Shown: one piece after another, positions 3,201 through 32,877 of the stretch
Layout of the letters: each line of letters starts with the position of its first letter
How positions within the stretch are numbered: the stretch's first letter is position 1
DNA from: Acidobacteriota bacterium
GTDB lineage: Bacteria > Acidobacteriota > Terriglobia > Versatilivoradales > Versatilivoraceae
NCBI GenBank assembly: GCA_022821775.1
Contig: JAJECY010000005.1
Coordinates: 1 to 33,480, forward strand
DNA: 33,480 nt
Direction of reading: 5' to 3'
The notes under the pieces: model-generated
Database searches by the model: none
Told to the model about the DNA's origin: nothing
The model's input: the letters and a program-made list of their open reading frames with translations, nothing else
Program-made: the position numbers and the translations under genes

Positions 3201-4118
3201 CTGAACGTCGGTGACACTACGGCCGAGGTTACCCTGCTGCTGCGGGATGCGAGCGGCAGGCCGCTCCACAGCCAGGACGTCGCCATTCCCGCACGCGGCC
3301 AATTTCAGAGCCCGGACCTGCATGCCGACTTCGGAATCGGCAACGTCTCCGGCCCCTTGGAGATCCTTTCCACCAACGGGATGCCACTGATCGCCACCTC
3401 CAGGGTCTATGCCCTCGATTCGGGCACCAGCGGCTTCTTCCGCGGACTGGACCTGGAGCGGGCCTCCAGCCGGGCGGTCATTCCCATCAGCCGGGAGAGC
3501 GAGGAATTTCGCAGCAACCTGGGGATCACCAACCTTTCCGAGCAGCCGGCCAGGGTGCAGGTCCAACTGTTCGATTCCGAGGGGACCCTTCTCGGGACGT
3601 CCAACGAGCAGGTGCAGCCGTTCGGTCTGGTCCAGTTGAACCGGGTCAACCGGAGGCTTTCGGGTTCGGGCGGGGGCGGGGACACGCTTGGATGGTTTCA
3701 ACTGAATGGCGACCGCCCCGTGGCCGGATTCGTGTCGCAGATCAACAACCGGAGCAGCGATCCGGGATTCGCGCGGTCGGACGTGCAGGCTTCCAGCAGA
3801 CTGCTGATTCCCTCGGCGACCAATGTGAACCAGTTTCGATCGACCATCACCATCGTCAACGCGGGGAACGGGGAAGAGGCGCGAGTGCGGATCCGTGTCC
3901 GAAACCGGCAGGGTAGAACCATTGGCGAAAGCCGGAACCGGACCCTGCCCCACAACGGGATCTTCCACCTGGACGATCTGCTGGGGAGCCTGGAGGTGCC
4001 CAGCGATTTCGGCCCCGTGGAAATCGAGTCCTTGAACGGCGTGCCCCTGCTGGCCGTGTCGCGGGTTTACAGCATCGAGGACGACACCGGGGGCTTCTTC
4101 CTGGCGCAGCCTTTCTAG
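246..4118 (+). CDS. Secreted matrixin-like metalloprotease with TIG domains and C-terminal repeats
   Basis: A 1290-residue exported protein starting at GTG 246, with GAGGA about 10 bases upstream. Basic residues followed by a hydrophobic stretch (about residues 30-55) look like a signal sequence or anchor. Residues 186-196 are HEAGHFLGLNH, a perfect metzincin zinc site (HExxHxxGxxH), followed by VMYPF, the expected Met-turn. The catalytic domain therefore covers about residues 60-235. After it come a carboxypeptidase-regulatory-like beta domain (about 240-300), two TIG/IPT-type immunoglobulin folds (about 455-625) and a long beta-rich region (about 640-850). Four modules of about 110 residues then start near 858, 969, 1079 and 1188. 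Modules 1 and 3 (EEFRxNLG) resemble each other, as do 2 and 4 (VNQFRS), so a 220-residue unit was duplicated. The likely role is extracellular proteolysis, with the C-terminal modules binding a surface or polymer. The substrate is unknown. Confidence 0.85.
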   Translation: MSSDSSAKKTARVPLRGSVHSENPCRPRQARRLVLLCLPVAVCAWWISRPPVLAFVPFLNGAKWMAFPVVYQIHQGGLPSTGNQSEFLAVHAGFEAWEEIEDSAIAFSYGGTSDAKVAALDYANVISFQDDSYEFGLGTVAVTLSFSGVTSGARVLVDADIIFNPDENFSTDGTPGTFDLQSVATHEAGHFLGLNHTGIVAAVMYPFADDGEGAIFGRVLKTDDRIGSSVLYPEPEFTNSSGGLTGRILLDDAGVFGAHVVALDSSGRAVASALSGEDGGYRISGLRPGSYTFYAEPLDGPVEEDNVLSPLDPRSFNTSFTTTFMRQRPDGNVGEPISVAAGDRLTGFDISVSPSSAQFLDLDKSRFGSNPTIYLSQGESDRKRIDGNGFLFAKNFFFLGEGIALQKWTPAGNLEAEIEIAVDVNAPLGPHSLFVQNPDDLAALSGGVLVTLPLPGVSTIVPNSGNRSGGTAVTIHGSNFHRDVSASLGGIPLQNLTWLDSGTVQGTTGPNGCGSFSLLVVNPDGSSARLPSAFEAVSPAPVIESVSPAAAELTSPVTIFGRNFDPVPQYNRVRFNNQPAKVISSTASRIVTEVPFGATSGPITVEVCGQVAASSEFSVLSLQPSRNRPQPSFSYLDLSRDPEASRLEFRVDEEEDQTPDDSIARITLPFKFILFTRAFPEGSPLNISSNGWMSLTPSVGSTAEWENGRLPGLLVPRPGGSVGVMPASLIAPFFHDLVVGKTDSGVYTRVMGEAPNRRLIIEWKNFSAYDDGGEDARPDYATRLTFQAVLYEGSYDIAFLYSDLQGPLTQGESATIGLQNDGRDRAIQFGFNRPRLSEGTSLFFRFNPEVGSYAFEQFLPLVTDTEEFRTNLGLSADILSGATVELTLFDESGQPRGSRTVSVPRGGLIQLNHLVRSLLGTGSSRRSDLSGSVLVASDQMVFPYVTQIDNRTSDPSLDLGAMSGGTRLGILSTTSVNQFRSSLVVLNVGDTTAEVTLLLRDASGRPLHSQDVAIPARGQFQSPDLHADFGIGNVSGPLEILSTNGMPLIATSRVYALDSGTSGFFRGLDLERASSRAVIPISRESEEFRSNLGITNLSEQPARVQVQLFDSEGTLLGTSNEQVQPFGLVQLNRVNRRLSGSGGGGDTLGWFQLNGDRPVAGFVSQINNRSSDPGFARSDVQASSRLLIPSATNVNQFRSTITIVNAGNGEEARVRIRVRNRQGRTIGESRNRTLPHNGIFHLDDLLGSLEVPSDFGPVEIESLNGVPLLAVSRVYSIEDDTGGFFLAQPF

Positions 4119-7997: not shown

Positions 7998-10388
7998 ATG
8001 CAGTGGTTTCTACTCCTGATCGTGTTGTCGGTCTGGCCCTCCGAGGAGGGGTGGTCTCAAGAGATCGACATCCCCCTGACCGTGCGGGAGACCGCCGGAC
8101 TGTCCCGCCATCAGTATCCCATCACTTCGGGCGTCCCGCTACCTCGGGGGCTTCTCAAGTCAGCCCGCCTGCTCCAGTTGATGGACCGCCAGGGCAGGTT
8201 TGTTCCCGCCGTTGTCGAGGAAGTGGCTCGCTGGCCGGAAGACGGCAGCCTGCAGTGGGTCCAGGTCCACTTCGCCGCCAGCCTGCCGGCCAACGGGCAA
8301 GTGGTGTACTTCCTGCGTCGGGTCGGCGGCCTGCCCAGGTTTCCCTCGCCCATTGGCCTGTCGCGTGGCAGCGAGGCGGTGGAAGTGGTTACCGGGCCCC
8401 TCCGGTTGGTCATGGGAGGTCCGTCGCAGCAACTGTTGGACCAGGTCTGGGTGGACGAGAATTGGGGCTACGATTTCTCCGCACGCACGCGGATCCTGGA
8501 TAGCGGCCGTTTCCGGATGGCCCTCAAGAGTGGCGGCAACACTTACGGCATGGGCTCCTGGAGCGAAAACCAGGTGGTGGTGGAAGAGGCCAATGCGTTT
8601 CGAGCCGTGATCAAGGTTTCGGGGACCTTTGTCTCCGAGGATGCGGGAGTCGCGCCCCTGGACTTTGTGGCCAGGGTTACGGTGTATGGAGGAAAGACCT
8701 ATTTCAGGCTGGACTTGAGGCTGGTTCGGCCTTGCGGCTCGGGGACCGGGGGATTTCCGGTGGAGGACTTCAGCCTCGAGACCCAATTGAACCTGGATCC
8801 GCTTTCGCGGCGGTTTGCCCTGGGCGGAGGGGAACGGGATCATGAGGGCCACTTCGATCGAACCTCTGCCGTATCCCTCTACCTGAACAGTCCCGATTCC
8901 TATCGCCTCTCGGTAGTGGAGGCGGATGAGGCCGCCCCTGACGGAGGTGCCGGCCGCCAACCCGCTTCCCGAACGGCGCGGCGCCGGGTGGCGAAGGAGT
9001 TCCGCGCCAATCTGGGCTGGGGGGACTTGGCCGACGAGCGGCATGGCCTGGCGCTGGGCGTGAAGCGGTTCCCGCATCTCTATCCCATGGCCTTTGAAAT
9101 CAAAGAGTCCGGCAGCCTGATCGCGCGGCTGTTACCGCAGGAGGCCAAACCCTGGAACATTCCGGCCGGCGGGTCCAGGACCCACCAAATGCTTTTTTAC
9201 TTTCACGGGAACCGCGGTCTTGCCCAGGGTCGGGTCAAGAACGAACTCATGGGTCTGCAGAACCCGGTGTACGCGTTCGCTCCGCCCTCCTGGTACTGTC
9301 GGGCCGGCCAAGCCCTGGGAGCGCTTTCGGAATCGTCCCCCGAGGCCTATCGGGAGGGGTATTGGCCACTGGTTCGTCGGGTCGACGAGTGGATTGAAGG
9401 ACAGCGGGAATCTTTGGCAGCATCGCTCGATGATCGAGGGTCGGACGAAAACGACAGCTTCGGCCGGCCCGGCTCAGGCGGAGGCCGGCTCCGCCCGGAG
9501 AGCGCGCAAACCGCCGCGAAGAGCATCCGTTGGACCGACGACCGCAGCGACTCTCTTGCCCGGGGCCTTTACCTTCACTTTTATCGGACCGGAGACCCCA
9601 GGTCGCTGGAAGTCGCAGAGCAGTTGGTTGACCGCTGGGCGGATTTCGGTGTTTCCCGCCGGCCCCACTCCGCCACCGGAGTTTGTGGGCCGGCCGGCTG
9701 GGACGGGCATGGCCGTGAGCAACTGCTTGACTCGTTTCTGCTGACCGGGAACCGCCGAGCCCTGGACGCCGCTCGTTCCTGGCTGGAGCAGGTGGCGGTT
9801 GCGGACGAATTGAATCCTGCTCAGGCCCCCCGGCATGCAGCAGAGGTCCTGGCCGGACTGGTCAGGGGTTACCAGGCGCTTGGGGATGAGCGTTTCCTGG
9901 AGAAGGCCCGGTGGATCGTGGAGGTGATCGGTGCCTGGCAAGACGGGGATTGGGAGCGCTTGAAGGAACTGTCTCCGGTGAACGCCCTGCGGTGGCGGGC
10001 GGAACGCGGACCCACCGGCGTGACCGAAACCTGGAACCGGGGACAGCTCTGGTCGGCGCTCCACAGGAATCGGGACTGGTTGGGTCGAGACCGGGTGGAG
10101 GCCTGCCTGCAGAGGGAGATTGGGTCCGTCCGGGTCGGCTTGGAAGACCGGTCAAGCGGAGCGAGGGATCCCGGGAAGTCCCCGGAAGCCGGAATCAGTC
10201 TGGCGTCGGGTTTGGCCGCCCTCTACGAGACCGGGGGCGATCCGGAACACTGGGAACTGGCGCTGAGGGTGTTTACCGAGGCAATCCAGGATCGGGAGGC
10301 GTCCCGGTCAGTCCCTTCGGGCGCCGTTTCGAGCCAAGCGCAGCACTTTCTCTGGTATCTGTCCCTAGCGTTCGATCCGCCCCGGTGA
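7998..10388 (+). CDS. Exported exo-rhamnogalacturonan-lyase-like (RIFT-barrel / PL26-like) protein
   Basis: A 796-residue protein with a short signal peptide (hydrophobic residues 3-12, then SEEGWSQ as likely cleavage region). ATG 7998 is the only start, because an in-frame stop lies at 7971; no good ribosome binding site is seen. The N-terminal domain has the pattern of the PcRGLX/YetA type: a VR-x-x-x-G-x-x-R start, SGVPLPRGLL, then RWPEDGSLQWVQVHF. Residues up to about 400 are beta-rich. The rest is helical with WDGHGREQLLDSFLLTG, consistent with an alpha/alpha toroid of polysaccharide lyases. The probable role is breakdown of an acidic plant or algal polysaccharide in the periplasm or outside. 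Family membership is from pattern recognition, and catalytic residues could not be assigned. Confidence 0.6.
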   Translation: MQWFLLLIVLSVWPSEEGWSQEIDIPLTVRETAGLSRHQYPITSGVPLPRGLLKSARLLQLMDRQGRFVPAVVEEVARWPEDGSLQWVQVHFAASLPANGQVVYFLRRVGGLPRFPSPIGLSRGSEAVEVVTGPLRLVMGGPSQQLLDQVWVDENWGYDFSARTRILDSGRFRMALKSGGNTYGMGSWSENQVVVEEANAFRAVIKVSGTFVSEDAGVAPLDFVARVTVYGGKTYFRLDLRLVRPCGSGTGGFPVEDFSLETQLNLDPLSRRFALGGGERDHEGHFDRTSAVSLYLNSPDSYRLSVVEADEAAPDGGAGRQPASRTARRRVAKEFRANLGWGDLADERHGLALGVKRFPHLYPMAFEIKESGSLIARLLPQEAKPWNIPAGGSRTHQMLFYFHGNRGLAQGRVKNELMGLQNPVYAFAPPSWYCRAGQALGALSESSPEAYREGYWPLVRRVDEWIEGQRESLAASLDDRGSDENDSFGRPGSGGGRLRPESAQTAAKSIRWTDDRSDSLARGLYLHFYRTGDPRSLEVAEQLVDRWADFGVSRRPHSATGVCGPAGWDGHGREQLLDSFLLTGNRRALDAARSWLEQVAVADELNPAQAPRHAAEVLAGLVRGYQALGDERFLEKARWIVEVIGAWQDGDWERLKELSPVNALRWRAERGPTGVTETWNRGQLWSALHRNRDWLGRDRVEACLQREIGSVRVGLEDRSSGARDPGKSPEAGISLASGLAALYETGGDPEHWELALRVFTEAIQDREASRSVPSGAVSSQAQHFLWYLSLAFDPPR

Positions 10389-21210: not shown

Positions 21211-21238
21211 TCCATGGGCTGACGCCCACGGCTAAGTG
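21211..21238 (-). repeat. Inverted copy of the tandem-repeat junction
   Basis: These 28 bases are the exact reverse complement of 21547-21574 and 21726-21753, the junction between successive 179-base units. The region from 21211 to 21753 is therefore bounded by a 28-base inverted repeat enclosing about 490 bases. It may mark the edge of a repeat family or a palindromic insertion. Confidence 0.75.
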
Positions 21239-21378
21239 CTGGCGCGGCTTCGCCGCTCTATAAGGAGGGCCGGGAAGGAACGTTTCCTGCGACAACCCGC
21301 GGCAACCGCGGTTTCACCGCTCTCCCCAAACTCTCGACACTGCAAGGTGAAAGAATTTTTCCCCAATGGATCCTCCCT

Positions 21379-21763
21379 GGGCGTCAGCCCATGGAAACTC
21401 GGCGCCCCATACGAGAGTTGAGCCGCGAACGCGGCGTCAGCAAACCCCGGCAAGCATGAGTCAATCGCGGACGAACGCAACCACGTTCCTCACCAGCAAA
21501 AACGTAACATGAGCCATCTTCCGCCACAGCCGCGAAGCGGCGACAACACTTAGCCGTGGGCGTCAGCCCATGGAAACTCGGCGTCCCGTATGGGAGTTGA
21601 GCCGCGAACGCGGCGTCAGCAAAACCCGGCAAGCATGAGTCGAACGCAGACGAACGCAACCACGTTCCTCACCAGCAAAAACGCAACATGAGCCATCTTC
21701 CGCCACAGCCGCGAAGCGGCGACAACACTTAGCCGTGGGCGTCAGCCCATGGAAACTCGGCGA
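21379..21763. repeat. 179-bp tandem repeat (two full units and a partial third)
   Basis: Unit 1 is 21379-21557, unit 2 is 21558-21736, and a partial third unit begins at 21737 and loses identity after about 26 bases. Each starts GGGCGTCAGCCCATGGAAAC. The two full units differ at only about a dozen positions, mostly near their first third and middle. Internal palindromes such as GCCGCGAACGCGGC and GCCGCGAAGCGGC are conserved. It is not a CRISPR: the repeats touch each other and there are no spacers. It is more likely an intergenic repeat family or structured RNA of this lineage. Confidence 0.85.
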
Positions 21764-21939: not shown

Positions 21940-23304
21940 ATGGCCAAGCTCAATCGCCGCGAAATGATTCGAACAGGTGCTTTGCTCGGCGGCGGCCTTG
22001 CCGCCGGCCGTTGGCTGGAGGCCCCCGCGGCCGCCCACACCCGTGAGAGCGATTGTCGCTGGCAACAGGAATACACCTTCGGCCACACCGTGCTGTTCAT
22101 GGAGGAGTACTACCAGGGCACGCTGGACATCCTGGGCGCTCAGAGCGGCGAGTTGGACCAGATCGGCGAGCTGACCTCCCGAGCCGCCAGCCTGGTCAAA
22201 AAGGGCGGCAAAGTCTGGACCTCCATGAACCTGGGGCACATGCCCTACTACGAGCAGAAAGACGACCGCCGCGGCAGTCCCGGCATCATGAAGACCCATT
22301 CGACCTCTCTTGGGGCTGAAAAGGATTTCGACCAGATGCAGCCGGGCGACATCGTCTTTACCAACCGGGCCAACAAGGCCGTGCTGGCCGCCAGGGAGCG
22401 GGGCGTCTACGTGGTCTGCGTCACCATCAACTACTGGAACAACGAGTTCAGGCCTCCCGGCTACAATCACCCATCTCACGGCTGCCCCGACGGATTGATG
22501 CTCAAGGACGTCTCCAACGAGATACTCCACAGCCATGTTCCCTACGAGCAGGGGCTGGTGCATGCTCCGGAAATTCCCGAATTCGCCATCTGTCCTTCCA
22601 GCGGCACCGGCAGCGGCGCCATCCACTGGATGCTGAACGCCGAGATCGCCAACAAGCTGGCCCATCCCAACGCCAAGGCGGTGGACAAGAGCGCCCAGTA
22701 CCTGAGGATTCTGACCGAGCGGGTCCAGCGCACCCGCAGCCATTTCGATCGCATCCGGGAAACGACGGCCATCATGGCGGAGCGCGTCCGGGCCGGCGGG
22801 CGATGGTTCGGAGAAAGCATTGAGCATCCGGGGTTCAAGAGCGAATTTCACGTGGCCTCCGGCATCCGGGTGGTGAATTGGGGGGATTGGGAAGCTAACA
22901 AGGAAAAGAACGTCATGTTCATCAACTCCATCTCGCCGGCCTATCCGGAAGAGGTGAAGTTGGCGCTGGAGAAGCAGGTGGAAGGAGCTTACGTGGTTGG
23001 CGTCGGACCCAGCTCGACCGACGGCGTCGTTCCCCACGGGCGGCTCATCGACGTGGCCGATGCCGGTTTCGACAATTTCTCTCCCGAGTCCGGCGGTGTG
23101 ATTCAAATTGAAGGGGAATCCCGCACTATCTGTCCCACTTCCGGGATCGTGGGAAACGTCATTCAGCAGATGATCATTGCTCAATGGTGCGATGAAATGG
23201 TGCGGCGGGGCTCGGTGCCCTATTTTCTTTTTGGCGTCTACCGGGAGGGCGGCCGGGAATACAATGCCGCCATGCAGCCCTTTTTCGAAATCCAGGGGTA
23301 TTAG
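21940..23304 (+). CDS. Exported tandem SIS-domain protein, paralogue 1
   Basis: A 454-residue protein starting at ATG 21940 (GAGG upstream). The N-terminus NRREMIRTGALLGGG plus APAAA-H (cut near residue 32) resembles a twin-arginine export signal, although the first motif position is not canonical. The mature protein looks like two sugar-isomerase (SIS) folds in tandem. Copy A (about 47-250) has helix HTVLFMEEY, strand/loop GDIVFTNRANKAVLAARERG and ICPSSGTGSGAIHWML. Copy B (about 255-454) has VADAGFDNFSPE, ICPTSGIVGNVIQQMI and GGREYNAAM, which align by eye with the end of UPF0309/SIS_2 proteins. SIS domains bind phosphosugars, normally in the cytoplasm; an exported double version is odd. It is 60 bases upstream of its paralogue. 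The actual reaction is unknown. Confidence 0.8.
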   Translation: MAKLNRREMIRTGALLGGGLAAGRWLEAPAAAHTRESDCRWQQEYTFGHTVLFMEEYYQGTLDILGAQSGELDQIGELTSRAASLVKKGGKVWTSMNLGHMPYYEQKDDRRGSPGIMKTHSTSLGAEKDFDQMQPGDIVFTNRANKAVLAARERGVYVVCVTINYWNNEFRPPGYNHPSHGCPDGLMLKDVSNEILHSHVPYEQGLVHAPEIPEFAICPSSGTGSGAIHWMLNAEIANKLAHPNAKAVDKSAQYLRILTERVQRTRSHFDRIRETTAIMAERVRAGGRWFGESIEHPGFKSEFHVASGIRVVNWGDWEANKEKNVMFINSISPAYPEEVKLALEKQVEGAYVVGVGPSSTDGVVPHGRLIDVADAGFDNFSPESGGVIQIEGESRTICPTSGIVGNVIQQMIIAQWCDEMVRRGSVPYFLFGVYREGGREYNAAMQPFFEIQGY

Positions 23305-23364
23305 GAATGGAGCGTCTCCCCGGCAATGGGTCGGGGGCGATCAGAGTCAATTCGGGGTACAGGG

Positions 23365-24720
23365 ATGGGTAACAAGATCCACCGCCGTCTGTTTCTGGGA
23401 GGAGGCGCCGGAGTGGGCGCCTGGTTGTCCGGCTCCGCCAACCGGTCCGAAGTTCGGGCCGCCGGAACCGGCGAGAGCGGATGCCTCCGGCCGGGGGCTC
23501 CGACCTTCGGCCATACGGTGCTCTTCATGGAGGAATACCACCAGGCCACCATGGAGATGCTGGGTCGCCTCAGCGGCGAGCTCGACCAGGTTGGCGAACT
23601 CACTTCGCGGGCGGCCGCGGTGATCAAGGCTGGAGGAACGGCCTGGACCTCCATGGACGACGGCCACATGCCCGGGCCGGAGCAGAAGGCCACCAGACGG
23701 GGCAATCCCGGAATTCTCCGCAACCACAATGGATACAAGCCGGCCACCTTTGATGCGATGCAAAAGGGCGATATGGTCTTCACCAACCAGTGCAATCGCG
23801 CCGTGCAAAGGGCCCGGGACCGGGGCGTCTACGTGGTGGCGGTGACCGTGAACTACGTGGACAATGAATTCCGCCCGAAAGGCTTCACCAATACCAACGA
23901 AGACAACCTGATGCTCAAGGATGTCTCCAACGAGATTCTGCACAGCCATGTTCCCTATTACCAGGGACTGGTCCATGCGCCCCAGATTCCCGAGTTCACC
24001 CTGTGCCCCTCCACCACCACCGGCAGTGGGGCGCTTCACTGGATGCTGACCGCCGAGACCGCCAACAAGGTCTGGACCGGCAGCACCAAATCGGTGGACA
24101 AGAGCGCCGAATACCTTCGGGTGCTCACCGAGCGAGTGGATCGGATCAGGCGCCACCAACCTCGAATCCGAGAAACTGCCGTCACCATGGCCCGGCGCAT
24201 TCGCCGGGGAGGCCGCTGGTTTGCGCGCAGCCTGGAGCACCCGGGATTCGCCAGCGAGCTGAGCGGGGTGGCCTCGGGACCGATGATCATAAACTGGGGA
24301 GACTGGGAAGCAACCAGAGAACTCAACGTCATGATCATCACCGCCATCTCTCCGGCCCACACCCCGGAAATGCGACTGGCTCGGGAGAAGCAGATCGAGG
24401 GAGCCTACGTGATCGGAGTCGGTCCCGGCTCCATGGACGGGAAAGTGCCTCCCGGTCGATTGATCGATGTCGCCGACGCCGGTTTCGACAATTTCTCTCC
24501 GGAGCGGGAGGGCGTCATTGAAATCGCAGGCCGCAAGGAACGCATCTGCCCGACCTCGGGCATTGTGGGCAATGTCATTCAGCAGATGATCTGTGCGCAG
24601 TGGACCGATGAAATGGTCCGGCGGGGATCGGTGCCCTACTATTGGATGGGCTTTTTCCAGAACGGGGGCCGGCCCTACGACGATGCCATTCGTCCCCATT
24701 TCGAGGCGCAGGGCTTCTAG
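23365..24720 (+). CDS. Exported tandem SIS-domain protein, paralogue 2
   Basis: A 451-residue paralogue of the preceding gene, collinear over its whole length: HTVLFMEEY, ELDQVGELTSRAA, LKDVSNEILHSHVPY, NWGDWEA, VADAGFDNFSPE and ICPTSGIVGNVIQQMI are shared. I choose ATG 23365, which gives MGNKIHRRLFLGGGAG, a short twin-arginine-like signal, with AGGG just upstream; ATG 23326 would put 13 extra residues before it. The signal peptides of the two differ much more than the mature parts. Catalytic residues of phosphosugar isomerases could not be placed with confidence. Two different copies kept side by side suggest a heteromer or two related substrates; this is inference. Confidence 0.8.
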   Translation: MGNKIHRRLFLGGGAGVGAWLSGSANRSEVRAAGTGESGCLRPGAPTFGHTVLFMEEYHQATMEMLGRLSGELDQVGELTSRAAAVIKAGGTAWTSMDDGHMPGPEQKATRRGNPGILRNHNGYKPATFDAMQKGDMVFTNQCNRAVQRARDRGVYVVAVTVNYVDNEFRPKGFTNTNEDNLMLKDVSNEILHSHVPYYQGLVHAPQIPEFTLCPSTTTGSGALHWMLTAETANKVWTGSTKSVDKSAEYLRVLTERVDRIRRHQPRIRETAVTMARRIRRGGRWFARSLEHPGFASELSGVASGPMIINWGDWEATRELNVMIITAISPAHTPEMRLAREKQIEGAYVIGVGPGSMDGKVPPGRLIDVADAGFDNFSPEREGVIEIAGRKERICPTSGIVGNVIQQMICAQWTDEMVRRGSVPYYWMGFFQNGGRPYDDAIRPHFEAQGF

Positions 24721-24749
24721 CCCGCATTTCTTCCTGAAAGGAATCCACC

Positions 24750-25484
24750 ATCACACCCGAGGAAATCAGACTGGCGCGGATCGACCTGACCGCCGCCCTT
24801 CGCTGGGCTGCACGTCTGGGGCTGAGCGAGGGGATCTGCAACCACTTCAGCCTGGCGGTTTCAGACGACAGTCACCAGTTTCTGGTCAATCCGATTGGCT
24901 TCCACTGGAGCGAGCTGTGTGCCAGCGACCTGGTCCTGGCCGACAAGGACCGCCGCATCCTGGAGGGCAGCAACACCGTGGAAGATTCGGCCTTCTTCAT
25001 TCACTCCCGCATCCACATGGCCAAGCCCCGGGCTCGCTGCGTGCTGCACACCCACATGCCCTACGCCACCGCCATCTGTCTGCTGGAGCAGGGCAGGCTC
25101 CGGATGGCCTCACAGAATGCTCTCCGGTATTACGGCCGGGTGGCCTATATCGACGAATATCGCGGGTTGGCCTTTGAAAGCGCGGAGGGAGACCGCCTGG
25201 CCGCGGCCATGGGCGACAACGACGTGGCCTTTCTGGGCGCCCACGGGGTGATTGTGACCGGGCCCACGGTTTGGGACGCCTTCGACGACCTCTACTACCT
25301 GGAACGGGCCTGCCAATCCCAGTTCATCGTTCAATCTTCCGGACAGCGGCTACGAGAAATTCCGGAGTCGACGGTCAAGGAAGTGGCTCCGGTGATGCAA
25401 TCGGGTCTGGCGACCATGCGCGATCTGCACTTCCAGGCCATCCGGCGCATCCTGGACCGGGAAGAACCGGAGTATGCCCGGTAG
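24750..25484 (+). CDS. Class II aldolase/adducin family protein with an apparent AUC start
   Basis: A 244-residue protein of the fuculose-phosphate aldolase fold, a zinc-dependent lyase family. Zinc ligands are seen in HTHMPYAT and GAHGVIVTG. The conserved N-terminal GLSEGICNHFSLAV lies upstream of the first ordinary start codon (GTG 24978), so starting there would remove about 76 residues of the domain. In frame, a stop is at 24735 and the only sensible start is ATC 24750, giving (M)TPEEIRLARIDLTAAL, with AAGGA seven bases before it. Either AUC is the true start or an ATG was lost by mutation or sequencing error. It follows the SIS pair by 29 bases, so a sugar-phosphate or sugar-acid substrate is plausible, but this is inference. 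Confidence 0.82.
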   Translation: MTPEEIRLARIDLTAALRWAARLGLSEGICNHFSLAVSDDSHQFLVNPIGFHWSELCASDLVLADKDRRILEGSNTVEDSAFFIHSRIHMAKPRARCVLHTHMPYATAICLLEQGRLRMASQNALRYYGRVAYIDEYRGLAFESAEGDRLAAAMGDNDVAFLGAHGVIVTGPTVWDAFDDLYYLERACQSQFIVQSSGQRLREIPESTVKEVAPVMQSGLATMRDLHFQAIRRILDREEPEYAR

Positions 25485-25584: not shown

Positions 25585-26328
25585 ATGAAGGTGACTGAGA
25601 CGGTATTTCTGGTGGGCGGAGGCGAGACCGAGACGGTCTTTACCGACCGCATGGACTGCAATGTCTACCTCATGCGGGCCGGGGACCTCTACCTGCTGAT
25701 CGACGCGGGCGGCGGGATGGGCGCCGACCAGGTCGTGGACAATATCCGCGGGCACGGCGTGGACCCCGCCCGGGTGGAATGGTTGCTGCTCACTCACGCT
25801 CACGGAGACCATGCCGCAGGAGCCGCGCCCCTGAAGCAACGGCTGCCCAACCTGAAAGTGGCCATCTCGGCGGAAGCCGCCGGCTGGCTGCGCACTGGCG
25901 ACGAAAAGGCCATCAACCTGGACAAGGGACGCTCCACCGGAATGTACCCCCCCGAGTTCCAGTTTCTGCCTTGCCCGGTGGACCTGGAGCTTCAGGATGG
26001 TCAGGAAGTGGAACTGGGCGGCAAGGTCTTCCGGGTGGTGGCGACTCCCGGCCACTGTGCGGGCCATGTGTCCTTCCTGGTGGAGGACGGGGGCAAACTG
26101 ACTCTCTTCGCGGGCGACGCCATCTTTCCCGAAGGCAAGATCCTTCTGCAGAACATCGGGGACTGCGACCTGCACCAATCCATGAGGAGCGTGGAACGGC
26201 TGGCCCGGCTCCGTCCCGACCATCTGTTTGCGGGACATAAGCCGCCGGTCCTAAATGAGGCGGCCGCCCATTTCAAGCCCGCGACCGACCGGATCGAGGC
26301 GCTGGTCCCGCCCTGGAACCTCTTCTAG
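25585..26328 (+). CDS. Metallo-beta-lactamase-fold hydrolase
   Basis: A 247-residue cytoplasmic metallo-hydrolase. Start ATG 25585 has AGGAGG nine bases upstream. The metal site is complete: LTHAHGDHAAG (HxHxDH, about residues 71-81), PGHCAGHVSFLV (third histidine), LFAGDAIFPEG (bridging aspartate) and FAGHKPPV (last histidine). The pattern is that of glyoxalase-II-like and related thioester/lactone hydrolases; the substrate cannot be read from it. The stop codon is followed one base later by the next start, so the two are translationally coupled. It probably hydrolyses an intermediate of the neighbouring pathway. Confidence 0.9.
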   Translation: MKVTETVFLVGGGETETVFTDRMDCNVYLMRAGDLYLLIDAGGGMGADQVVDNIRGHGVDPARVEWLLLTHAHGDHAAGAAPLKQRLPNLKVAISAEAAGWLRTGDEKAINLDKGRSTGMYPPEFQFLPCPVDLELQDGQEVELGGKVFRVVATPGHCAGHVSFLVEDGGKLTLFAGDAIFPEGKILLQNIGDCDLHQSMRSVERLARLRPDHLFAGHKPPVLNEAAAHFKPATDRIEALVPPWNLF

Positions 26329-26329
26329 A

Positions 26330-27646
26330 ATGCCGGCTGCATCCCGGGCCGAGCCAAGGGCCCGGGCCAACCTGGAGATCTCCCCCTTGCTTGACCTGGT
26401 TTCGATCCGAAAACAATTCCCGTCCCTGGAACGCACCGTGGGGGGGCAACCGGCCGTGTTTTTCGATGGTCCGGGCGGGACCCAGATACCCCGGCAGGTC
26501 ATGGATGCCGTCGCTCACTACTATATGACCATGAACTGCAACATCGAGGGCACCTTCGTCACCAGCGAGGACACCGACCGCATGCTGGTGGAAGCCGACC
26601 AGGCCATTGTCGATTTCCTGAATGCTCGCTCCATCGATGAGATTGCCTTCGGCCTGAACATGACCACCCACACCTACAACGTGAGTCGCGCCATCGGCAA
26701 GACGCTGCAGCCGGGCGACGAGCTGGTGGTGACCGTGCTGGACCACGAGGCCAACGTCTCTCCCTGGCAGGCCCTGGAGGAGCATGGCGCCAAGGTCCAC
26801 TGCATCGATATCGACCCGGAAGACTGCACCCTCGACATGGAGGAGCTGGAGTCCAAGCTCAACTCGCGGACCAAGGTGGTGGCGATCGGCTATGCCTCCA
26901 ACGCCGTCGGCACGGTCAATCCGGTGGGGGAGGTGATCGAGAAGGCCCACCAGGTTGGAGCGCTTGTCTTTGTGGACGCCGTCCATTACGCGCCGCACGG
27001 ACCCATCGACGTGCAGGCTCTGGACTGCGACCTCATGGCCCTCTCGGTCTACAAGTTCTTCGGTCCCCACGTGGGGGTGCTCTACGGCAAACAGGAAGTG
27101 CTGGAGCGGCTACCCGCCTACAAGATCCGGCCGGCCAAGCCTCGTTTCGAAATCGGGACTCAGAACCATGAGGGGATCGCCGGGAGCCTGGCCGCCGTCG
27201 AATACCTGGCCGAACTGGGCCGGCAGCAGGGCGGCGCCTTTCGGGACCGTTATCCGCATCTCGAGGGCAGGCGCTTGCATGTGAAGACCTGTTTGTCCGC
27301 CATCGAGAGCTATGAGCGGCCCCTGTTCCAGCGACTGCTGGACGGTCTGGAGCAGATCAGGGGTTTGAAGATCTGGGGGATCACCGACCGCGACCGGCTC
27401 CACTGCCGCACGCCCACGGCGGCCTTCACGGTTCCGGGCCGTTCTCCACGAGAGATCACGGCCGAAATGGGCAAGAAGGGGTTTTTCCTCTGGGAAGGGG
27501 ACTTCTACGCCCAGGCACTGATCGAACGGCTGGGGTTGTTCGATTCGGGCGGCGTCGTGCGTCTGGGACTGGTCCATTACAATACGGCCGAGGAAGTCGA
27601 CCGTTGCCTGTCCGCGCTGGAGGCGGTGGTCCTGGGTCGAGCCTGA
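26330..27646 (+). CDS. Class V aminotransferase-fold PLP enzyme, cysteine-desulfurase-like without catalytic Cys
   Basis: A 438-residue PLP enzyme of the SufS/CsdA fold. Start ATG 26330 lies one base after the MBL gene; an inner TTG 26389 (LLDLVSIRKQFPSL) is an alternative that fits the family start better. The cofactor lysine is Lys242 in SVYKFFGPHVGVLYG, PLP stacks on His in LDHEANVSPW and is held by Asp in VDAVHYAPHG. Where SufS has the cysteine loop (GHHCAQPLMERLG), this protein has GDFYAQALIERLG, so the catalytic cysteine is a tyrosine. It cannot act as a normal cysteine desulfurase. It belongs to the cysteine-desulfurase-like group (VC1184-like) and may be an aminotransferase, lyase or epimerase in the local pathway. 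Confidence 0.88.
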   Translation: MPAASRAEPRARANLEISPLLDLVSIRKQFPSLERTVGGQPAVFFDGPGGTQIPRQVMDAVAHYYMTMNCNIEGTFVTSEDTDRMLVEADQAIVDFLNARSIDEIAFGLNMTTHTYNVSRAIGKTLQPGDELVVTVLDHEANVSPWQALEEHGAKVHCIDIDPEDCTLDMEELESKLNSRTKVVAIGYASNAVGTVNPVGEVIEKAHQVGALVFVDAVHYAPHGPIDVQALDCDLMALSVYKFFGPHVGVLYGKQEVLERLPAYKIRPAKPRFEIGTQNHEGIAGSLAAVEYLAELGRQQGGAFRDRYPHLEGRRLHVKTCLSAIESYERPLFQRLLDGLEQIRGLKIWGITDRDRLHCRTPTAAFTVPGRSPREITAEMGKKGFFLWEGDFYAQALIERLGLFDSGGVVRLGLVHYNTAEEVDRCLSALEAVVLGRA

Positions 27647-27691: not shown

Positions 27692-29041
27692 TTGTCGACA
27701 CAAAGCGGCAACGCCGAGTCGGGGGCGGTGGTTGGAGACGCCGCCCGGTCCAAGGTGCCACTGTCGAGGAGGCTCAGCTACTGGAACAATTCCATTATTC
27801 TGTGGGGATGGGTGCTGGTGCTGTCCAGCTTCGTCGTGGGAGGAATCGTCGGTCAGTCCTTTCCCTTGAAGTTGTCCATGCCCATCATCTTCTTCGGGAC
27901 CTTGAGCAACGGGATCGTGGGAGCCCTGATCGGGGCGGCCGCCGCCCGGACCGGGTATTCCAGCGCGCTCCTCTACCGCTACACCTTTGGGCGCAAGGGA
28001 GTGGTACTGCCCAACGTGCTGATGGGTTTGACCAGCATGGGCTGGTTTTCGGTCATCCTGAACATGACCCGGGACGGTCTCACCGGACATTGGGGTTGGG
28101 AGGCCGGCTCGGCTCCCTGGCTGATCTCCACCATCGCCATCGGGGTCCTGTTCATCGTTCCGGCAGTGGTGCGCATTCGCTGGATTGCCTACGTGGACTG
28201 GATTGCCGTGCCCGGTTTCCTGGTCCTGGTCTTCATGATCATCGACGCCACGCTCACGCGCGCGGGCGGTTTCGGCGTGTTGTGGAACAAGTGGTTCGAT
28301 CCCACCGCGCCTGCCTTCATCGGGTTCGACATGGCGGCCGGCGGTTGGCTGGTGGGAGTGACCATCATTTCCGACATGGCCCGCTTCTGGAAGAACGGCA
28401 AGCAGGCCCTGATCGGGATCATGACGGCCTACGCCGGGCTGGTCACCATGCAGTACTGGGGGGGCGCCATCGGGGCCGCCTTCACCGGCGAGTTCAATGT
28501 GTTCATCATGGCTCAGGCCCTGGGCCTGCCGTTCGTGGTCTGGGTGTTCGGCTGGTTCGGCGCCCAGTCCACGGTGCAGGGAGGCACCTACGCGGCTGGA
28601 CTGGCCTTTTCGGCGCCACCCATCCCCATGGTCTGGGGGCAGGAATTCACTCGCCGCCTGGCCACGGCGGGAGCAGGGCTGGTGGGCCTGGTGGGGAGCT
28701 TCGTGGGGCTGGACCGGTTCGTGAACTGGTATGTTCAGTTTCTGGGCTGGGTGGTGGCCCCGATCGCCATGACGGTGATTCTGGACTACTGGGCCTTTCC
28801 GGAAAGACGGAAACGCTACCAGAGCGCCAGGGGAGCGGACATGAACCTCAATCCCGCCGCCTACGCAGCCTGGCTGACAGGTTTCCTGGTCGGGTTCTAT
28901 GTGGGGCAGAACCAGCTCTTCAGCGGTCTGGTCAGCTCCATGGTGGCCTCGGGCCTGGTCTACTACGGCTGGATGAAGTGGTCGCTGGCCCAGGGGCAGA
29001 CGCCGGAGCAGCAGATGGGCCTGGCCCCGACGAAAGGTTGA
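27692..29041 (+). CDS. NCS1-family (cytosine/purine/allantoin-type) permease
   Basis: A 449-residue inner-membrane transporter with about 12 hydrophobic segments. The TTG start at 27692 is preceded by AAAGGAG. The N-terminal region RLSYWNNSIILWGWVLVLSS, the GRKGVVLPN loop, the SDMARFWKNGKQA segment between helices and the DYWAF near the end (ILDYWAFPERRKRY) are marks of the CodB-like NCS1 group. This suggests import of a nucleobase-like or other small nitrogen-containing compound with a cation. It sits in the middle of the catabolic-looking cluster and is coupled to a tiny membrane protein three bases downstream. Confidence 0.88.
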   Translation: MSTQSGNAESGAVVGDAARSKVPLSRRLSYWNNSIILWGWVLVLSSFVVGGIVGQSFPLKLSMPIIFFGTLSNGIVGALIGAAAARTGYSSALLYRYTFGRKGVVLPNVLMGLTSMGWFSVILNMTRDGLTGHWGWEAGSAPWLISTIAIGVLFIVPAVVRIRWIAYVDWIAVPGFLVLVFMIIDATLTRAGGFGVLWNKWFDPTAPAFIGFDMAAGGWLVGVTIISDMARFWKNGKQALIGIMTAYAGLVTMQYWGGAIGAAFTGEFNVFIMAQALGLPFVVWVFGWFGAQSTVQGGTYAAGLAFSAPPIPMVWGQEFTRRLATAGAGLVGLVGSFVGLDRFVNWYVQFLGWVVAPIAMTVILDYWAFPERRKRYQSARGADMNLNPAAYAAWLTGFLVGFYVGQNQLFSGLVSSMVASGLVYYGWMKWSLAQGQTPEQQMGLAPTKG

Positions 29042-29225: not shown

Positions 29226-29897
29226 ATGCGGATTGGCATTCTGGGCGGGACCGGGCCCGAGGGCCGGGGCTTGGCGCTGCGTCTGAGTCAGGCGGGGTAC
29301 CCGGTGATCATCGGTTCCCGCAATCCGCAGCAGGCGGCACTCAGAGCCGAGCAACTGCGGAGTCGATTGAAGGAGGAGGGCGGGCCGGGAGCCGACATCG
29401 GGGGCCTTGAGAACTCAGCGGTCGCCGAGGCGTGCGACATCCTCTTCGTTGCAGCGCCCTTCGAGCATGCCGCCGGCCTGTTGGATAACTGCCGCGCCCA
29501 TCTTCGCCAGGGACAGATCGTCGTAGACGTCACCGTTCCGCTGCAGTTTCGGGCGAAGCGCCTGCAACTGAGAGAATTGCCCGAGCCTTCCGCCAGCGAG
29601 CACCTGGCCAAGGTCCTTCCGGAGGGCGTTCTGCTGGTGGCGGCCTTCAAGACCATTCCCGCCCACCTGCTGGAAGATCTGAGCCAACAGCTCGATTGTC
29701 ACGTCTTCGTCTGCGGGGATTCCGTGGAAGCCCGCCGCCGGATCGTCCAGGTTGCCTCCAGGATCGAGGGGCTGTCTCCGCTGGACGTGGGGCCGCTGAG
29801 ACAGGCCGCAACCCTGGAGCGCATGACGGTCCTGGCCATTCAGATCAACAAGCGGCACAAAGTGCACCACTCCCGGTATCGAGTGGTCGGTCTGTAA
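29226..29897 (+). CDS. npdG: NADPH-dependent F420 reductase
   Basis: A 223-residue cytoplasmic oxidoreductase that passes hydride between NADPH and coenzyme F420. Start ATG 29226 has GTGGAGG upstream. The N-terminal Rossmann motif is GILGGTGPEGRGLALRL, with the NADP-recognising SRN (IIGSRNPQQA) following beta-2. The middle segment VVDVTVPLQF and the KTIPAHLLED region match the F420:NADP oxidoreductase family, and the C-terminal LERMTVLAIQINKRHKVHHS is characteristic. It closes the cluster and lies upstream of the cof genes that make its coenzyme, separated by a repeat-rich gap. The direction in vivo (F420 reduction or NADP reduction) cannot be read from the sequence. Confidence 0.88.
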   Translation: MRIGILGGTGPEGRGLALRLSQAGYPVIIGSRNPQQAALRAEQLRSRLKEEGGPGADIGGLENSAVAEACDILFVAAPFEHAAGLLDNCRAHLRQGQIVVDVTVPLQFRAKRLQLRELPEPSASEHLAKVLPEGVLLVAAFKTIPAHLLEDLSQQLDCHVFVCGDSVEARRRIVQVASRIEGLSPLDVGPLRQAATLERMTVLAIQINKRHKVHHSRYRVVGL

Positions 29898-29957
29898 CCA
29901 GGAGTCCCGCCACCGTCGCCACCTTGCCTGCCTGAAACAACGACATAAAAGAGATAT

Positions 29958-29995
29958 CCACGAAGACACACGAAGGACCACGAAGACACACGAAG
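29958..29995. repeat. CCACGAAGACACACGAAG direct repeat
   Basis: Two identical 18-base units (29958-29975 and 29978-29995) with two bases between them. Similar but decayed units are seen at about 6084-6110 and at 4221-4240. This is a dispersed low-complexity family in non-coding gaps of this genome. Confidence 0.6.
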
Positions 29996-30142
29996 AAAGA
30001 CGGAGTTCTTGACCCACTCAATGGGAACGCCCCCGGTTCGAGTGAAGGAAAACGGGTTGAGGAATGGCCTACCTGGGACAGGAAATGACACCCTGTGATT
30101 CCCGGCGTCGGGGTTCGGCCTCGAGTGTAAAAAGATTGATTC

Positions 30143-30294
30143 ACATGGATGCACAGGATACACAGGATTTTTTCAGGAAACGGATGGCTCGCAGTCCTGA
30201 GCATCCGCAGGCCCGCACCGGATCATCGCCCCAGCCGGCTTCCGGTGCAGGAACCTCTCGTCCTGTTTATCCTGTTAATCCTGTGCATCCATGT
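30143..30294. repeat. Imperfect inverted repeat, GGATGCACAGGAT type
   Basis: The left arm 30143-30178 begins ACATGGATGCACAGGATACA. The right arm 30261-30294 is its approximate reverse complement (TCCTGTTAATCCTGTGCATC). About 80 bases lie between. The arms contain repeated ACAGGAT / AACAGGAT steps. Such palindromes are scattered in many bacterial genomes. A role as mobile remnant or transcript-ending hairpin is possible. Confidence 0.65.
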
Positions 30295-30525
30295 TCATAA
30301 AAAATAGAGTGCAACCACGTCACAGGGCGTTTGCCTGCTCCCGGAACCGGCAACTTGTTTAAAAACAACCCTGTTTCTTCACGTTCGAATGATTGGCCCC
30401 GTCGTCTGGGGTGGGGGCAGGGCTTGTCCGGGGTCTCTGGGCCTCGCCGCGCCGCACATTCCCGCTGAAATGGTTCGCATGCCGGATCGCGGGACAGGGG
30501 TGTCGACTGGAGAAAAGGGGGCAGG

Positions 30526-31458
30526 GTGAATTCCGACGGCGTGGTGGTGCTGGCCGGTGGCGTGGGAGCCGCGAAGTTTCTGCTGGGGCTCAGCCGGGTC
30601 ATCCCTCCCGAACGGATCACCATTGTCGGCAACACCGGGGACGACTTCAGGGTGTGTGGGCTCCGCATTTGCCCGGACCTGGACACCGTCACCTATACCC
30701 TTGCGGGAAAAGTGGAACCCTCCCGGGGTTGGGGGGTGGCCGGGGATGACTTCGACTGCCTGGAGTGGCTGCAGGCCTATGGCGCTCCGAGCTGGTTTCG
30801 CTTGGGGGACCGGGACCTGGCCACCCACCTGTGGCGGACCCATCTCCTTGAGCAAGGCTTGGGCCTGGCGGAGGTCACCGCCAGAATCGGCCGCACCTGG
30901 GGGATGCGCAGCCGGCTCCTGCCCATGACCGAGTCCTATGCGCCGACTCGGATTCTGACCGACCAAGGGGACCTCCACCTGCAGGAATACCTGGTGCGGG
31001 AACAGTGCCGGCCCCGTGTGCTCGAGGTGAGCTACCGGAACGTCGAGCAGAGTCGGTTCCCGCCGGGGCTGCCGGTAGAGATTTCCGGGGCCTGCCGGGT
31101 GGTGGTGGCTCCCAGCAACCCCTTGATCAGCATCGGACCGATCCTGGCGGTCCCCGGCATGAAGGACCTCTTGCGAGATTCCGGTTTGCCGGTCACTGCG
31201 GTCAGTCCGCTGGTGGGGGGGAGGGCATTGAAGGGTCCGGCGGCCAAGATGCTGAAGGAGTTGGGTCACCCGGCCTCGGCCCTGGGCGTTGCCCGCCTCC
31301 TGCAGGGGGTTGTCGATCAGTTCGTGATCGACACGCGGGACAAGGCCCTGAAGAAAGATATCGAGGGCCTGGGAATGCAGGTCAAGGTCACCAATACCGT
31401 CATGGCCGGCCTGGCCGACAAGGTGGCCCTGGCGCAAGCAGTCATGGGGCCGTGGTGA
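30526..31458 (+). CDS. cofD: 2-phospho-L-lactate transferase CofD (F420 biosynthesis)
   Basis: A 310-residue enzyme that joins the activated 2-phospholactate-type moiety to the deazaflavin Fo, giving F420-0 (or its dehydro form). The GTG start at 30526 has GGGGGCAGG upstream. Family motifs: LAGGVGAAKFLLGL at residues 9-22, IVGNTGDDF with GLRICPDLDTVTYTLAG, WGMRSRLLPMTE, VVAPSNPLISIGPILAVPG and the C-terminal DTRDKAL. Length is typical. It overlaps cofC by four bases (GTGA), so translation is coupled. No cofG/cofH or fbiC for Fo synthesis is in the window. Confidence 0.95.
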   Translation: MNSDGVVVLAGGVGAAKFLLGLSRVIPPERITIVGNTGDDFRVCGLRICPDLDTVTYTLAGKVEPSRGWGVAGDDFDCLEWLQAYGAPSWFRLGDRDLATHLWRTHLLEQGLGLAEVTARIGRTWGMRSRLLPMTESYAPTRILTDQGDLHLQEYLVREQCRPRVLEVSYRNVEQSRFPPGLPVEISGACRVVVAPSNPLISIGPILAVPGMKDLLRDSGLPVTAVSPLVGGRALKGPAAKMLKELGHPASALGVARLLQGVVDQFVIDTRDKALKKDIEGLGMQVKVTNTVMAGLADKVALAQAVMGPW

Positions 31459-32135
31459 CGGTCATCCTTCTTCCCGTCAAGGATCCGGAGCGATCCAAGC
31501 AACGCCTGGCCGGGCTGCTCTCTGCCGGGGAGCGGACCCGGCTGGTCTGGGCCATGCTGGAGGATGTCTGCGCCGCCGTCCGCGGATGCCGCTTCGCCGA
31601 TCGTGTCGTGGTGGTGGCCCGAGATCCGGATGTGGCCGCCTATGCGGCCGGGAACGGCTGGGAAGTGTTGCGGGAGAGCGAGCAGGTTTCCGAGAGCCGT
31701 TCGGTGGACTGGGCTTCGAGTTTGCTGGAAGAGCAGGGAGTAGCAGCGGTGCTGCGGCTGCCGGCGGACATTCCCCTGGTGCAGGCCCGGGACCTGGACG
31801 CCCTCCTCGATCCGGCCGCCCGGGCACCCGCGGCCGTGCTGGTTCCCTCGCAGGATGGTCTGGGGACCAACGCATTGCTCCGCTCGCCGCCCTTGGTTTT
31901 TCCCTCCAGGTTCGGCGCCGACAGCCTGCAATCACACCTTCAAGAGGCGCGCTTAAGGGGACTGCAGGTGGCGGTCAGGACGATGCCGAGGCTGGCCCTG
32001 GACCTCGACCTGGCTTCGGACCTGGCGCGATTCGTCAGTTTGGGGAAGGGAACCGCCACCCAGGCCCTTCTCCAAGGTCTGCGGGTGGCGGACCGCCTGG
32101 CGGGTATGAATCGAGGCGCCCATGCAGGTTCCTGA
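31455..32135 (+). CDS. cofC: 2-phospho-L-lactate guanylyltransferase CofC (F420 biosynthesis)
   Basis: A 226-residue nucleotidyltransferase that activates the three-carbon phospho acid with GTP for CofD. The GTG start 31455 overlaps the cofD stop. Motifs: ILLPVKDPERSKQRLAGLL (N-terminal nucleotide-binding loop), VVVVARDPDVAAYAAGNG, RLPADIPLVQARDLDALL (metal-binding aspartate in PADIP) and PSQDGLGTNALL, a signature of the family. The C-terminal LDLDLASDL is also conserved. The cofE start lies 14 bases inside its 3' end. The exact substrate (phospholactate, phosphoenolpyruvate or 3-phosphoglycerate) cannot be told. Confidence 0.93.
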   Translation: MTVILLPVKDPERSKQRLAGLLSAGERTRLVWAMLEDVCAAVRGCRFADRVVVVARDPDVAAYAAGNGWEVLRESEQVSESRSVDWASSLLEEQGVAAVLRLPADIPLVQARDLDALLDPAARAPAAVLVPSQDGLGTNALLRSPPLVFPSRFGADSLQSHLQEARLRGLQVAVRTMPRLALDLDLASDLARFVSLGKGTATQALLQGLRVADRLAGMNRGAHAGS

Positions 32136-32877
32136 GTACAGGGTCGTCGGAATTCCCGGATTGCCGGAAATCCTGCCGGGGAGCGGACTGGGTGAGCTCA
32201 TCTGCGGCGCCGTCCGGGCCGCCTCCCTGGAAGTGCTGGATGGGGACATCTTTGTGGTCACCCAGAAGGTCGTCTCCAAGGATGAGGGCAGGTCGGTCCG
32301 CCTGGAGTCGGTAAAGCCGTCTCGCCTGGCCCGCAACTGGGCGGGCGAGCTGGACAAGGACCCGGCTCTGGTCGAGATCATCCTCAGCCAGTCCCGCCGA
32401 ATCGTCAGGATGGACCGAGGGCGGCTGATCGTTGAGACCCATCACGGCTTCGTGTGCGCCAACGCCGGAGTGGACCAGTCCAACACCGCGGCCGGCGAAG
32501 TCACCCTCCTGCCGGAGGATCCCGATGCCTCCGCCCGCCGCCTTCGGAGTTGCCTGGAGCAAGGCTTTCGGACCCGCCTGGCCGTGATCGTTTCCGACAC
32601 CTTCGGCCGACCCTGGCGTGAAGGTCTGGTAAACGTCGCCATCGGGGTTGCCGGCCTCGCCCCCCTGGTCGACTACCGTGGAGACCTCGACAGCGCCGGC
32701 CGCCGGCTGGAGGCCACCGCCATGGCCTGGGCCGACGAGCTGGCCGGAGCAGCCGAGCCGGTCATGGGGAAGGCCCGGGGAATTCCGGTCGCCATCGTCC
32801 GCGGATTGACCTATCCGGCAGCCGAAGGGTCGGCTCGTTCACTGATTCGTCCGGCGGAGCAGGATCTGTTCAGGTAG
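32122..32877 (+). CDS. cofE: Coenzyme F420-0:L-glutamate ligase CofE
   Basis: A 251-residue GTP-dependent ligase that adds glutamates to F420-0. It starts at ATG 32122 inside cofC. Motifs: VTQKVVSKDEGR (GTP/metal-binding region), THHGFVCANAGVDQSNT and SDTFGRPWREGLVNVAIGVAGL, all diagnostic. It lacks the C-terminal nitroreductase-like domain found in the actinobacterial FbiB fusion, as in the archaeal-type enzyme. It is the last gene of cofDCE and converges on the BrnA-like gene. Confidence 0.95.
   Translation: MQVPEYRVVGIPGLPEILPGSGLGELICGAVRAASLEVLDGDIFVVTQKVVSKDEGRSVRLESVKPSRLARNWAGELDKDPALVEIILSQSRRIVRMDRGRLIVETHHGFVCANAGVDQSNTAAGEVTLLPEDPDASARRLRSCLEQGFRTRLAVIVSDTFGRPWREGLVNVAIGVAGLAPLVDYRGDLDSAGRRLEATAMAWADELAGAAEPVMGKARGIPVAIVRGLTYPAAEGSARSLIRPAEQDLFR

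Follow-up and report, generated by a model that had tools for sequence, protein, structure and literature searches.

What would proteins made of paired SIS domains be doing outside the cytoplasm? SIS domains are intracellular phosphosugar modules, and two adjacent genes in the stretch of DNA analysed here (the window, 33,480 nucleotides of a 4.4 Mb metagenome-assembled genome of a marine acidobacterium) each encode two of them behind a putative export signal. An earlier note, made from the letters of the window, had drawn attention to the open reading frames at 21940-24720 and to sequence motifs in them, and both are present as it described. We favour, by a modest balance of probability, the view that the two proteins, SIS1 and SIS2, are extracytoplasmic SIS pseudo-dimers that are exported by the Tat pathway and act on a non-phosphorylated sugar or sugar acid.

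SIS1 (454 aa, MAKLNRREMIRTGALLGGG...; 21940..23304, plus strand) was delimited from its open reading frame, orthologues and profile homology, and its paralogue SIS2 (451 aa, MGNKIHRRLFLGGGAG...; 23365..24720, plus strand) from its open reading frame, orthologues and alignment. The genes are separated by 60 bp and their products are 64-65% identical, in agreement with the earlier description of two diverged, adjacent copies. Within SIS1, a candidate twin-arginine signal with a predicted cleavage site (NRREMIRTGALLGGGLAAGRWLEAPAAA, residues 1-32; 21940..22035) is followed by an N-type SIS half (residues 45-245; 22072..22674), placed by HHalign to UPF0309 and to the C-half, and by a C-type SIS half (residues 246-454; 22675..23301), placed by HHalign to UPF0309 and by comparison of the family profile with NagS (9eol). 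SIS2 has the same layout on the same strand, with a signal (IHRRLFLGGGAGVGAWLSG...VRAA) at 23365..23463, an N-type half at 23500..24087 and a C-type half at 24088..24717, the boundaries of the halves being approximate and set by alignment. Downstream by 29 bp is a class II aldolase of the PRK06486 type (24750..25484, plus strand; Pfam and NCBIfam matches). No genome with the pair lacks this aldolase, and SIS1, SIS2 and the aldolase likely form one operon. Three further plus-strand genes, whose synteny is kept in the sister genus (locus L024), encode a metallo-beta-lactamase-fold hydrolase (25585..26328; domain match), a cysteine-desulfurase-like PLP enzyme (26378..27646, exact start uncertain; family match to TIGR01976) and an NCS1-type permease of the cytosine/purine/allantoin family (27692..29041; PF02133, E 3e-7).

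The aldolase gene has no ATG, GTG or TTG start, and an in-frame TGA lies at 24735; its sole plausible and probable start is the ATC at 24750, a few bases 3' of GAAAGGA. This start context is identical in two other genomes (G002, L151; G006, L152), and an ATG is found in the sister genus (L024). On the 5' side of SIS1 are an unrelated cmk-like gene on the opposite strand and an 800-bp intergenic region with repeats, in which positions 21211-21762 hold two copies of a 179-nt direct repeat (94%), the first 30 nt of a third copy, and a 47-nt arm that is inverted relative to the 179-nt repeats.

By profile comparison, both halves of SIS1 and SIS2 can be assigned to the SIS domains. In single-sequence searches, the NCBIfam model NF002805 (UPF0309/PRK02947) matched the C-halves of SIS1 (E 1.6e-19, 70.1 bits) and SIS2 (E 2.2e-16, 59.8 bits) at about half of the 135 bits set as its curated cut-off, which neither score reaches, and Pfam gave no SIS domain match to either protein. 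The proposed kinship of the C-halves with SIS_2/UPF0309 proteins is therefore borne out, below cut-off, for UPF0309 and not for SIS_2, and the expectation that a SIS_2 profile would hit both halves failed for this pair; across the family, NF002805 matches 65/65 members and SIS_2 matches 44/65. Since NF002805 aligns best to C-halves, the N-half called for profile-profile comparison. Against three UPF0309 sequences, HHalign gave 99.4% for the N-half (E 7.7e-22) and 99.4% for the C-half (E 1.2e-21), with 99.6% between the halves themselves (E 1.4e-24) and 97.2% and 96.3% against GmhA-type SIS domains (E 1e-9 to 1e-11), whereas reversed, column-shuffled and DUF362 controls stayed at or below 0.7%. 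These values uphold two earlier claims, that each protein contains two SIS domains and that the N-half resembles the C-half. The profile of the 65-member family matched NagS/SCO4393 (9eol; E 2.3e-21, over the whole length of the SIS domain) and 3cvj (E 1.9e-18), with further matches to MurR and phosphoheptose isomerases.

Structural prediction points the same way at lower confidence. A first AlphaFold run from 7 sequences (pLDDT 41) was left out of the structural search; with a second model (pLDDT 49, pTM 0.52), the 50 PDB matches listed by Foldseek were to tandem-SIS proteins only, namely glucokinase regulatory protein, GlmS, FraB and NagB-II, the best being human glucokinase regulatory protein (E 3.1e-5). 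These matches lean towards the earlier expectation of two SIS folds, an alpha-beta-alpha fold in each half, and away from an unrelated one, and the dimer-like packing that was also expected is weakly supported at this pLDDT. With confidence so low, details of the pockets cannot be read from the model.

The case for export is firm for the family and indirect for SIS1 and SIS2 themselves. In an alignment of close relatives, both arginines (R6/R7 in SIS1) are kept in 15/15 orthologues and paralogues, and RR is present in 81% of 73 family members. Pfam TAT_signal matched neither SIS1 nor SIS2, and our rule-based scoring called SIS2 'Tat' and SIS1, with its weakly hydrophobic h-region, 'none'; the rule is our own and crude, and overlooks both SIS1 and L054 (MKRRD). 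Of the earlier claim that both proteins would be called as Tat substrates, the half concerning SIS2 is thus supported by the rule. That an export signal precedes the SIS domains is upheld more broadly, as signals are recognised in homologues by TAT_signal (12/65 members) and TIGR01409 (6/65), and a gene for TatC was found in the source genome. By this rule, 45 of 58 full-length members from Latescibacterota score as Tat (5 with a possible lipobox), 8 as Sec or lipoprotein and 5 as none, against 38 Tat and 93 Sec calls for the 272 genes around them (Fisher's test, p 4e-21 for Tat and p 2e-10 for any signal). Three signal-less Latescibacterota members (L081, L085 and L088) look genuine, and L081 falls in the same clade as SIS1/SIS2. 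Export is the rule in the family and is not universal, since the signal is lacking from these few members and from the majority of the order-swapped proteins examined (see below). The type of signal changes among Tat, lipoprotein and Sec across the family and the location stays, an argument that selection acts on where the protein works and not on how it gets there; for SIS1 and SIS2, the predicted export would depend on Tat.

If these proteins are exported SIS domains, do they retain the chemistry of their nearest characterised relative? NagS (SCO4393, UPF0309), a GlcNAc-6-phosphate dehydratase, is a dimer with its pockets between the subunits, a likeness to what we propose here; it differs in having one SIS domain per chain and in being an intracellular GlcNAc-6P enzyme, whereas SIS1 and SIS2 combine two half types and are predicted to be exported. 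In NagS, H53, R64, E94 and D179 are essential, S91 and N228 are used, and S54, S119 and S121 bind phosphate, with little loss when these three serines are changed to alanine (PMC12680351). The counterpart of H53 is H100 (64/73 members) in the N-half and H296 (in the SIS1/SIS2 clade) in the C-half. R64 aligns, give or take one residue, with R110 of the N-half, and its place in the C-half is taken by V305. NagS residues 76-103, which include S91 and E94, are an insertion that is missing from the C-half, and the same stretch is missing from the N-half; D179 aligns to a variable column (G385 here) and N228 to H or Y (Y434 here). The essential set is thus not present as a whole in SIS1/SIS2. Most of the phosphate serines are replaced, and no intact S-x-S-G phosphate loop was found, the loop being shortened in the N-half and reading NSISP or an equivalent in the C-half, where S332-P333 is its remnant (S332 is kept in the SIS1/SIS2 clade and variable in the family). 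With most of the catalytic residues of NagS gone or exchanged, the SIS1/SIS2 family is not NagS, and we rejected identity as a NagS-type dehydratase on the missing S91/E94 segment and the replacement of D179 and N228. Canonical phosphosugar binding by the family appears unlikely from these alignments, with the proviso that missing phosphate serines alone are insufficient to argue against a phosphorylated ligand because NagS tolerates their change to alanine. Near the pocket regions, H100, E105, R110, H296, E302 and S332 are invariant in the clade, which suggests a ligand site that may be retained but different.

We therefore envisage a non-phosphorylated substrate, since the canonical phosphate-binding residues and the catalytic residues of NagS have for the most part disappeared and other residues of the pocket regions are invariant. 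Each chain would comprise one N-type and one C-type SIS domain, and the predicted fold, together with what is known of the SIS family, suggests that the two halves pack against each other as SIS dimer subunits do and form ligand pockets where they meet. The conserved signals imply that the protein would fold in the cytoplasm and then be moved out by Tat; judging by residue conservation, it would most likely serve as a periplasmic isomerase or lyase of a non-phosphorylated sugar or sugar acid. Its product may feed a route in which the downstream NCS1-type permease imports it and the class II aldolase cleaves it, which is plausible for this locus and is the weakest step of the proposal. We know of no SIS fold that takes part in sugar chemistry outside the membrane, and a SIS branch that is exported and expanded, and in which the residues used by its nearest relative for phosphate binding and catalysis are lost, would imply such chemistry. 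The proposal would also assign a role to the dozens of proteins per genome for which Pfam offers a weak label or none.

A possible though rather doubtful alternative is that SIS1 and SIS2 are exported, non-catalytic sugar-binding or sensor proteins that signal to a partner, either an adjacent DUF362 protein or a transporter, in the manner of glucokinase regulatory protein (GKRP). GKRP is itself a tandem-SIS protein that lacks enzyme activity and binds a sugar ligand; it is the best structural match, and the known SIS catalytic residues are mostly lost here. The candidate partner comes from the gene neighbourhood: in eight loci, DUF362 genes lie within 400 bp and on the same strand beside exported Latescibacterota members, several with Tat-like RR starts (DUF362 proteins adjoining exported double-SIS genes are found at L042 7099-8757, L087 15361-17016, L091 150-1808, L047 11424-13184 and L097 5644-7398). 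However, the structural match comes from a low-confidence model, and the presence of at least 25 diverged copies per genome, mostly with enzymes as neighbours, and of many clade-invariant polar residues fits enzyme diversification better than sensing. These other neighbours of exported Latescibacterota members include GH43, an exported PIG-L de-N-acetylase, creatininase, cupins and UROD-like proteins, and those of the order-swapped cytoplasmic members include an FGGY kinase, MR/MLE enolases, ceramidase-like proteins and a BadF-type kinase. Together they indicate carbohydrate or amino-sugar metabolism in general, not a substrate. Within the SIS1/SIS2 clade, no neighbour is common to the acidobacterial and Latescibacterota loci, and the wider synteny with L024 includes housekeeping genes; for these reasons we rejected the neighbourhood as proof of a substrate.

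It is improbable that the proteins are conventional UPF0309/NagS-type enzymes, isomerases or dehydratases of phosphosugars in the cytoplasm, with an RR segment that does not work as a signal. The kinship with NagS, the few members without any signal and the S-P remnant of the SxSG loop in the C-half (S332) would all suit this explanation; against it stand the three kinds of export signal in the family, the enrichment of Tat signals over neighbouring genes, the Pfam and TIGRFAM signal matches, and the loss or replacement of the NagS residues described above. An unrelated fold with a chance resemblance of motifs, to which the lack of a Pfam SIS match for SIS1 or SIS2 alone and the low AlphaFold confidence might lend credit, is exceedingly improbable, being already refuted by the profile evidence (HHalign against its controls, and NF002805 in every member) and opposed by the tandem-SIS structures that alone make up the 50 matches listed.

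Enzymatic pseudo-dimers, the reading that we prefer, invite comparison with the tandem-SIS proteins, that is, the GlmS isomerase domain, GKRP, the FrlB/FraB deglycases and NagB-II, which likewise have two SIS domains per chain and form a pseudo-dimer. All of these work inside the cell, with sugar phosphates as substrates or ligands. The duplication in SIS1/SIS2 looks separate from theirs, because its sequence is closer to single-SIS UPF0309 proteins; from these, whose model matches every family member, SIS1 and SIS2 differ in being doubled and predicted exported.

The two half types also occur in other arrangements. In a tree of halves, all 40 of the N type and all 40 of the C type fall into two groups without mixing, however the genes are arranged (support 0.99 for the C clade and 0.44 for the N clade), which indicates that the duplication is older than the fusions; the sequences show the N- and C-type halves as products of a single, old duplication of a UPF0309/NagS-like SIS domain. 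The arrangements are N-C fusions, C-N fusions that mostly have no signal, and adjacent separate genes, of which the one for the N-type protein encodes the Tat signal. Split pairs were found at five places in Latescibacterota (L051 9399-10690, L099 3549-5024, L176 3221-4569, L178 2954-4622 and L179 1114-2518), with the C-type gene first and the downstream gene encoding an N-type protein with a Tat-like signal; in L051 and L176 the genes overlap by 4 nt. The N-type protein has a lipobox in 4/5 pairs (L051, L099, L176 and L179) and none in L178, and the C-type partner is signal-less in 4/5, the partner in L179 having a hydrophobic N-terminus that may be a signal. The order-swapped single open reading frames, from other Latescibacterota (L164-L172 and L174), encode about 390-430 aa, C then N, and mostly begin right at the domain, without a signal; by HHalign, residues 14-208 of a swapped protein match the C-half (99.7%) and 224-404 the N-half (99.3%).

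That both half types are kept together is the pattern expected of an obligate heterodimer, and the gene arrangements fit export of such a heterodimer in the folded state. The signal-less C-type partner would leave with the Tat-bearing N-type protein, much as a hitchhiker does; Tat export of signal-less partners is documented, for example, for PaoABC (PMC4273604). In PaoABC, one subunit has the Tat signal and signal-less partners follow, and the split SIS pairs are arranged alike; PaoABC is a cofactor-bearing redox enzyme, whereas the split pairs have a SIS fold with no known cofactor. The N-C order may be common among exported forms since the signal-bearing half comes first. Taken further, and with somewhat less confidence than in our reading of SIS1 and SIS2, the data may describe an undescribed family of obligate SIS alpha/beta heterodimers outside the cytoplasm, in which a Tat-bearing alpha carries a signal-less beta or both are joined in one chain, whichever comes first. 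Such a family would have exchanged the chemistry of sugar phosphates for that of free sugars, grown to 25 or more copies per genome within one Latescibacterota group, and been transferred to, or shared with, marine Acidobacteriota. The split, N-C and C-N forms would then offer a clean case of a heterodimer becoming a fused protein under a constraint on where the export signal is placed.

How widely is the family distributed? The orthologous pair occurs in 5/6 other genomes of the same genus, most likely 'Ca. Versatilivorator', and in one sister genus (G008, an ALOHA MAG). In the sixth, G002, the pair is missing and the aldolase lies 47 bases from a contig end, so that a break in the assembly probably explains the gap. 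All members of the genus and G008 have the aldolase; otherwise, among 61 relatives, only G007 does. A GTDB-wide scan with close-relative patterns returned one extra contig, from Latescibacterota, and family profile scans covered Acidobacteriota and Latescibacterota. Neither profile found a further full-length member in 396 Acidobacteriota genomes; the weak matches in other Acidobacteriota (G217, G327 and others) were mainly to the C-half, in open reading frames mostly of single-SIS size. A scan of viral contigs found no relatives, and one of plasmids gave only weak matches to C-half-like stretches, in Enterococcus and Lacticaseibacillus. Some Latescibacterota genomes carry at least 25 diverged copies (at least 27 matches in G446 (L025), 26 in G453, 27 in G454 and 15 in G452, some being fragments), and most others have no matches or only order-swapped or short ones. 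A search of one literature collection for exported SIS domains, Latescibacter with SIS domains or Versatilivorator found no report; SIS1 and SIS2 belong to a large family that appears to be undescribed so far. In its tree, the SIS1/SIS2 pair and the L024 pair fall in one clade with Latescibacterota orthologues, and SIS2 and its L024 partner are sister to the rest of that clade, which argues that the two copies are old.

Elsewhere in the window, F420-linked genes lie further downstream at 29226-32877, encoding an F420-dependent NADP oxidoreductase-like (FNO-like) protein, CofD and CofE. Positions 7998-10388 encode a 796-aa protein with weak matches to PcRGLX-like domains and GH127, and positions 246-4118 a 1290-aa M10 (matrixin) peptidase with TIG domains and a carboxypeptidase-regulatory-like domain.
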